Shown: one piece after another, positions 14,143 through 14,292 of the stretch
Layout of the letters: each line of letters opens with the position of its first letter
How positions within the stretch are numbered: the first letter of the stretch is position 1
Source: Bacillota bacterium
GTDB taxonomy: Bacteria; Bacillota; Sulfobacillia; JAJZIM01
DNA: 32,255 nucleotides
NCBI GenBank assembly: GCA_021810565.1
Contig: JAJZIM010000031.1
Coordinates: 1 to 32,255 of the forward strand
Direction of reading: 5' to 3'
Notes under the pieces: generated by a model
The model's database searches: none
Told to the model about the DNA's origin: nothing
The model's input: only the letters and a program-made list of their open reading frames with translations
Translations under genes and position numbers: made by a program

Positions 14143-14287
14143 CCTGATCCACTCCTTCGCTTTGATTTGCGGGCCGGGCGCAAGGACCTGTGTAATGTTT
14201 AGGTAAGGTTATAGCCGGAGATCGCACCGTTGCTGGGAGGTTGTCGCTCCCCGGCGCCCTTGCCGGGGTGACGCGCGGCCCTTGCGC
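14143..14287 (-). promoter_or_regulatory. nifH operon leader with long-range stem and internal hairpin
   Basis: The transcript is predicted to start near 14285-14287. Its 5' end (complement of 14277-14289) can pair with the complement of 14176-14188, just upstream of the ribosome binding site, over 13 bp with one G-U (11 bp if the start is at 14287). Inside lies a perfect 7-bp hairpin (14249-14268) whose loop on the RNA is AAGGGC. The same AAGGGC word also occurs at the 5' end. Alternative pairings such as GGGAG/CUCCC compete with that hairpin. No U-tract follows, so attenuation at a classic terminator is not evident. The structure suggests a regulatory leader, but I recognise no known riboswitch class. 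Confidence 0.45.
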
Positions 14288-14292
14288 CCCCT

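Follow-up and report, generated by a model that had tools for sequence, protein, structure and literature searches.

What can an ANTAR regulator act on in a nitrogenase leader that offers no terminator? This question is raised by the leader of nifH (nitrogenase iron protein) in a Bacillota bacterium of the class Sulfobacillia (assembly GCA_021810565.1, hereafter G000; 99.4% complete, 70% G+C), which lies in a stretch of 32,255 nucleotides (nt) of contig JAJZIM010000031.1 (hereafter the window). ANTAR proteins are known regulators of nitrogen genes, and the textbook mode needs a terminator for them to overcome; a terminator-less ANTAR nifH leader in an apparently Rho-less genome would show how the output of such a regulator can change, and has a bearing on the lack of terminators in many of the ANTAR RNAs predicted for high-G+C bacteria. 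We tentatively favour the explanation that the nifH leader is an ANTAR-target RNA in which a long-range closing stem has taken the place of the usual intrinsic terminator.

Twin hairpins beside an ANTAR gene

The leader is read 5′ to 3′ from position 14292 down to 14143 on the minus strand, ahead of nifH (13282-14142, minus strand; TIGR01287, 467.5 bits against a cut-off of 394.35), which is followed downstream on the same strand by nifD and then nifK. It contains two candidate ANTAR hairpins, both on the minus strand: P1 (GCGC-AAGGGCC-GCGC, 14273-14287), with a stem of 4 base pairs (bp), a C-G closing pair and a seven-base loop, and P2 (CCCCGGC-AAGGGC-GCCGGGG, 14249-14268), with a stem of 7 bp and a hexaloop; each loop has A at position 1 and G at position 4 (A1/G4). 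The first AAGGGC (14283-14278) starts 22 nt ahead of the second, and the linker between the hairpins is GTCA (4 nt). An earlier sequence-only reading had described a perfect hairpin whose AAGGGC loop satisfies the A1/G4 rule, and a repeat of this word near the 5′ end that lacks a clean six-base loop; both descriptions hold, the first for P2 (14268-14249) and the second for P1. Across both strands of the window, P2 is the sole A1/G4 hexaloop hairpin with at least 7 Watson–Crick pairs (such a hairpin arose in 3/2000 shuffled leaders), and P1 and P2 form the only twin.

Twins were counted in 58 listed loci, 54 of them distinct, which surround either ANTAR genes or nif genes in Bacillota that carry ANTAR, a twin being defined as two A1/G4 hexaloops with stems of at least 4 bp, 10 pairs in all and a linker of up to 15 nt, on either strand. 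These loci hold 19 twins in 0.51 megabases (Mb), including one near-identical pair (L052 and L053), compared with 3 in 2.20 Mb of other loci; L154-L157, named twice in the locus list, and some nested loci inflate the 0.51 Mb base total and add no twin hit. Most twins conform to C-AANGGN-G, with an interval of about 20-24 nt between their loops, and the nifH leader of G000 has C-AAGGGC twice at an interval of 22 nt; AAGGGC is also the P1 loop in L052 and in L159 (from G506, a nif genome of the same class) and the P2 loop in L173. When seven-base loops are allowed the enrichment is weaker: the counts of six-six twins and of twins with a seven-base loop are then 23 and 6 in the ANTAR set and 5 and 9 in 1.85 Mb of other nifH loci, and 0.05 Mb of other loci of G000, themselves chosen as model hits, contain 2 twins. 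A covariance model (R1) was built from an alignment (A1) of 12 of the 19 twins, none of them from the leader under study, and the pair counts in A1 are circular in that its rows were picked for pairing. The best R1 match in the window is 14288-14252 on the minus strand, at 17.7 bits, and the next reaches 11.3. Rfam yielded no match at gathering score anywhere in the window, two chance-level matches only in a permissive search around the leader, and no ANTAR-like family in five ANTAR-linked or nif loci.

The likely reader of the leader is a 162-residue ANTAR protein (16269-16757, plus strand), the sole one found in G000. Its gene lies 2.1 kilobases from the leader within the nifB-nifV cluster, where the plus-strand order is a nifB-like gene, a methyltransferase-like gene, the ANTAR gene and a homocitrate-synthase-like gene, with an ammonium transporter further on. 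Pfam recognizes the ANTAR domain alone in this protein (residues 76-128, 61.6 bits) and no receiver domain, which leaves it outside the two-component type; by eye, roughly half a receiver precedes the ANTAR domain. Given this lack of a full receiver, control of the protein by phosphorylation is doubtful. Judged in the same way, the two ANTAR frames of G001, the nearest nif relative, have no full receiver, and those of G492 and G506, two further nif genomes of the class, have one. Because of the spacing of the twin AAGGGC words, the C-G closing pair, the linker, the top model match in the window, the adjacent ANTAR gene and the attenuators that precede nif genes in relatives (described below), the leader looks like an ANTAR target, and on this point the earlier reading is supported. 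The family of ANTAR hairpins is known and common, and the nifH leader of G000 belongs to it by its hairpins, as far as sequence can place it.

A long-range stem predicted to compete with P1

The sequence-only reading also proposed that the first bases of the transcript pair with a segment just 5′ of the nifH ribosome binding site, and this pairing is borne out. On the minus strand, the 5′ arm GGGCGCAAGGGCC (14277-14289), which includes the first AAGGGC, and the 3′ arm GGTCCTTGCGCCC (14176-14188; also given as GGUCCUUGCGCCC) can form 13 contiguous pairs (14289-14277 with 14188-14176; 12 Watson–Crick and 1 G-U) that span a loop of 88 nt and close a domain of 114 nt. The ribosome binding site, AAGGAG (14152-14157, minus strand), follows 18 nt past the 3′ arm. 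A helix of at least 13 pairs was found in 1/2000 dinucleotide shuffles of the leader, and a closing helix of such length from the 5′ end in 0/1000 shuffled leaders. The 5′ arm takes in the 5′ side and the whole loop of P1, and GUCCUUGC, within the 3′ arm, is able to pair with the second AAGGGC (14263-14256). Another segment, UCUCCGGC (14214-14221, minus strand), can pair with the 3′ arm of P2 (14255-14248) over 8 bp including one G-U; a helix of that length is not rare in shuffles.

Structures of this kind could arise by chance in a genome of 70% G+C, and the ordinary folding energy of the whole stretch (z -0.85; z -1.39 for 14289-14143) is in keeping with that, as is a model score that is not unusual genome-wide. 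We nevertheless consider chance very improbable, given the rarity of both the stem and the P2 hairpin in shuffles and the fact that the window's single twin sits in the one position expected of an ANTAR target.

How much of the stem is transcribed depends on the promoter, for which a sigma-70-type candidate (TTGACA - 17 nt - TAATAT, 10/12) lies at 14293-14321 on the minus strand; the region holds 3 promoter-like sites against 0.1 expected in shuffles, and a divergent nifB promoter at 14364-14392 faces the opposite way. As the nifH promoter is placed at 14321-14293, the transcript would begin at about 14287-14285; its first base would lie 2-4 nt into the 5′ arm, leaving about 9-11 of the 13 stem pairs. 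A stem that starts within a few nucleotides of the transcript start would leave the 5′ end paired, and might thus be a stabilizer of the nifHDK mRNA that is unrelated to ANTAR. Such a role would fit a stem length beyond chance and its persistence at 0.98 when P2 is forced and the transcript starts at 14289. However, the 5′ arm also supplies P1 to an ANTAR-like pair that fits the family in spacing, loop and closing pair, beside the only ANTAR gene, and we regard pure stabilization as improbable.

In computed folding, P1 and the long stem are mutually exclusive. A transcript growing from 14287 carries P1 and P2 to about 84 nt, loses P2 at 92 nt and forms the closed domain from 108 nt. For the complete leader with 43 nt of nifH, the closed domain dominates when the start is set at 14289 and P1 with P2 dominates when it is set at 14287. 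These computations support a switch in which the hairpins would form first and the closing stem later, with a balance that appears close enough for a protein to tip and is also too close for the energies to be trusted. The consequences for the ribosome binding site are slight. When both hairpins are kept in place, the 3′ arm is released and partly pairs with AAGGAG, whose unpaired fraction is then 0.46-0.57 compared with 0.55-0.77 in the free ensemble (lower in 8/8 settings), and the opening energy differs between states by 0 to 4 kcal/mol depending on the coding sequence included. Masking of the ribosome binding site by either fold was rejected as an explanation, the difference being small and dependent on length. 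The earlier suggestion that competing pairings amount to a switch survives in part: the exclusivity of P1 and the long stem favours it. Any effect on nifH is less evident, as the leader is without a terminator, the genome gave no Rho match and the folds point to no clear effect on translation.

The missing terminator in G000 and the terminators of its relatives

No U-tract occurs in the nifH leader (longest U run, 2), no intrinsic terminator overlaps P2 and no terminator-like site was found in 14100-14520; elsewhere in the window, U-tract terminator-like sites are present at 18753-18770 and 20417-20391. A search for Rho (TIGR00767, E <= 1e-40) gave no match in G000 or in G001 (84% complete) and found it in G492 and G506. 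Rho-dependent attenuation of the nifH leader was set aside because Rho was not found in G000. With neither a U-tract terminator nor Rho, the classical ANTAR output and its obvious substitute would both be unavailable, as far as the assembly shows.

Among 154 genomes of the class, nifD exceeds the cut-off in 4 and ANTAR in 21, and all 4 nif genomes carry ANTAR. In the other three (G001, G492 and G506), ANTAR-type hairpins with terminators stand before nifH, nifB, nifV or amt. The nifH leader of G001 has CCGGC-AACGTG-GCCGG followed by TGGC-AAGGAA-GCCA, which merges into a perfect U-tract terminator. In the amt operon of G001, GAAC-AAGGGA-GTTC lies within a terminator, and before nifB of G492, TCCGGC-AACGGC-GCCGGA merges into a terminator. 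In G506, a textbook P1 (loop AAGGGC), P2 and terminator lie just upstream of nifV (L159 2313-2365 and following), and a terminator also accompanies the hairpin (loop AACGAC) of the nifH leader. The nifH leaders of these three genomes cannot be aligned with that of G000 and so provide no covariation for the 13-bp stem. A candidate for a conserved 5′-closing stem in G492 has only 9 bp and was discarded as evidence, as 115/1000 shuffles match it.

The association extends through the phylum. In a sample of 398 Bacillota genomes, nifH occurs in 66 and a match to the 162-residue ANTAR protein (E <= 0.001) in 176; 61/66 nifH genomes have both (Fisher p 3.7e-19, with shared ancestry ignored), and ANTAR control of nifH looks widespread in Bacillota. 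An AANG hairpin overlaps a U-tract terminator in 10/31 Bacillota nifH leaders (29 of the 30 loci taken, with the window's own excluded, plus those of G001 and G492; several are close pairs), in 0/79 leaders of other groups (mostly cyanobacteria and proteobacteria; L073, a copy of G001, was left out of 80) and in 3/620 shuffles. Three more leaders with a hairpin and terminator, L212 and L232 (identified by eye) and that of G506 nifH, fall outside the 10/31 count. The survey points to attenuation by ANTAR as a common feature of nifH in Bacillota.

Two further explanations follow from the relatives. The first is that the leader of G000 is a transcription attenuator like theirs, in which ANTAR would hold P1 and P2, failing which the closed domain would stop RNA polymerase without a U-tract. 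Besides the frequency of terminators before Bacillota nifH, the computed order of events (hairpins first, closing stem later) is what an attenuator requires. Against this, the leader lacks both a U-tract and a terminator-like site, the long stem has an 88-nt loop, U-tract terminator-like sites are found elsewhere in the window and no Rho was found, and we judge such attenuation unlikely. The second is that an ancestral terminator was lost by decay, with nifH now unregulated at this level and the long stem incidental. The terminators kept by G001, G506 and G492 (before nifB) and gone from the nifH leader of G000 would agree with decay, as would the imperfect P1 and an ANTAR protein without a recognized receiver; yet a 13-bp complement to P1 is hardly a product of decay (1/2000 shuffles), P2 has a flawless 7-bp stem and the ANTAR gene remains intact (61.6 bits), which makes this account as improbable as that of a simple 5′ stabilizer.

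Possible output of the leader and its counterparts

Under the favoured explanation of a closing stem in place of the terminator, P1 and P2 would, on the computed folds, form first as the RNA emerges, and once 14188-14176 has been made, the 13-bp stem could dismantle P1 and close the 114-nt domain. We suggest that the neighbouring ANTAR protein binds the hairpin loops, holds the open form and opposes closure of the domain. With more reserve, the outcome may be read after transcription, as ribosome binding or as the lifetime of the nifHDK mRNA, and not as termination, since the leader lacks a U-tract and the genome apparently lacks Rho. Release of the 3′ arm in the open form would let it compete modestly for the ribosome binding site, and the sign of control is therefore uncertain.

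Several observations weigh against this explanation. The P1 loop has seven bases and its stem only 4 bp, and the difference in ribosome-site exposure between states is small; moreover, its direction would make ANTAR a brake, contrary to its usual activating role. None of G001, G492 and G506 has the 13-bp stem in its nifH leader, and a gap in the assembly could hide Rho in G000. Judged against the whole of G000, the R1 score of the leader does not stand out (rank 2, E 2.67), and R1 gives hits of 17.3 and 17.8 bits in two genomes that have no ANTAR match; location therefore carries as much of the case for an ANTAR target as the score does. The top R1 hit in G000 (L185) overlaps a leuB-like frame. 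Further targets sought with R1 in six genomes reached up to 19.8 bits, hardly above the two ANTAR-less genomes, and were not retained.

A more specific proposal is that an ANTAR attenuator was rebuilt as a terminator-free switch in a nitrogen fixer seemingly without Rho, with GGUCCUUGCGCCC pairing either with the nifH ribosome binding site or with the AAGG-bearing loop, itself similar to such a site, with ANTAR binding setting the translation of nifHDK, and with the nifB leader built to the same plan. We consider this proposal, taken as a whole, unlikely. The corresponding pieces of the divergent nifB leader are a loop GAGGAA, a segment UCCUCGC and the ribosome site GGGAGGAGG. The loop belongs to a possible related hairpin, weakly supported and with G at loop position 1 (GCGC-GAGGAA-GCGC, 14408-14421, plus strand), and the downstream UCCUCGC is complementary to both its loop and arm.

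The leader can be compared with several known ANTAR systems. Work attributed to Ueki and Lovley in 2010, which PMC8164766 cites, reportedly describes Geobacter GnfK/GnfR, in which an ANTAR response regulator with a kinase is said to activate nif. The likeness to these proteins, as to a prediction in Pelobacter, lies in nif operons as ANTAR targets, and the difference from GnfR lies in the G000 protein having no recognized receiver and no terminator having been found. The paper by Ramesh et al. 2012 (PMC3369931) describes two hexaloop hairpins with A1 and G4 and effects of the closing pairs and linker, lists nitrogenase genes among predicted ANTAR targets (the Pelobacter prediction included) and allows that hits without terminators may act on translation. 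The leaders of EutV (eut), NasR (nasF) and AmiR (amiE) share with that of G000 adjacent short hairpins, A1/G4, a C-G closing pair, a short linker, an ANTAR gene in the genome, an alternative pairing that destroys a hairpin and a connection to nitrogen genes. The nifH leader of G000 differs in its seven-base P1 loop, in its lack of an intrinsic terminator and in a competing 13-bp stem that overlaps P1 instead of P2 and encloses the whole leader. A single hexaloop is the minimal binding motif according to PMC8934654. In actinobacteria, according to PMC8164766, only few ANTAR RNAs are followed by a terminator, and many coincide with the ribosome site; these actinobacterial and mycobacterial RNAs resemble the leader of G000 in high G+C, twin hairpins, a general lack of intrinsic terminators and a proposed effect on translation, whereas in G000 a distance of 91 nt separates the end of the motif from the ribosome binding site, and the 3′ arm is the only part close to it. 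In the searches made for ANTAR with nifH or nitrogen fixation, we found no paper that describes ANTAR attenuation as common for Bacillota nifH leaders, beyond the general statement of PMC3369931.

Some minor observations concern the neighbouring leaders and relatives. The nifB leader (14396-14488, plus strand) carries GCGC-GAGGAA-GCGC and a second hairpin, GCCGGC-AUCCUC-GCCGGC, the two loops being complementary over five bases, and has no U-tract; the nifH leaders of G492 and G506 likewise contain sequences readable as loops with G at position 1. The amt leader of the window was rejected as an ANTAR target, as it offers only CCAT-AAGGGG-GTGG with a U-G closing pair, which is not convincing. 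In G001, a similar element of about 100 nt, with ends GGTTTCGCC and GGCGAAACC that are clear in L156, lies in frame inside a PII-like gene upstream of nifB and inside a second ANTAR gene (L156 about 3655-3790, L157 about 6600-6750). As a result both proteins contain EGFASVHAPVA(F/V)GEGKEQTS, and the element has the look of an in-frame palindromic repeat. Upstream of the nif genes of the same genome, L062 3384-3486 (plus strand) matches Group II intron D1-D4-6.
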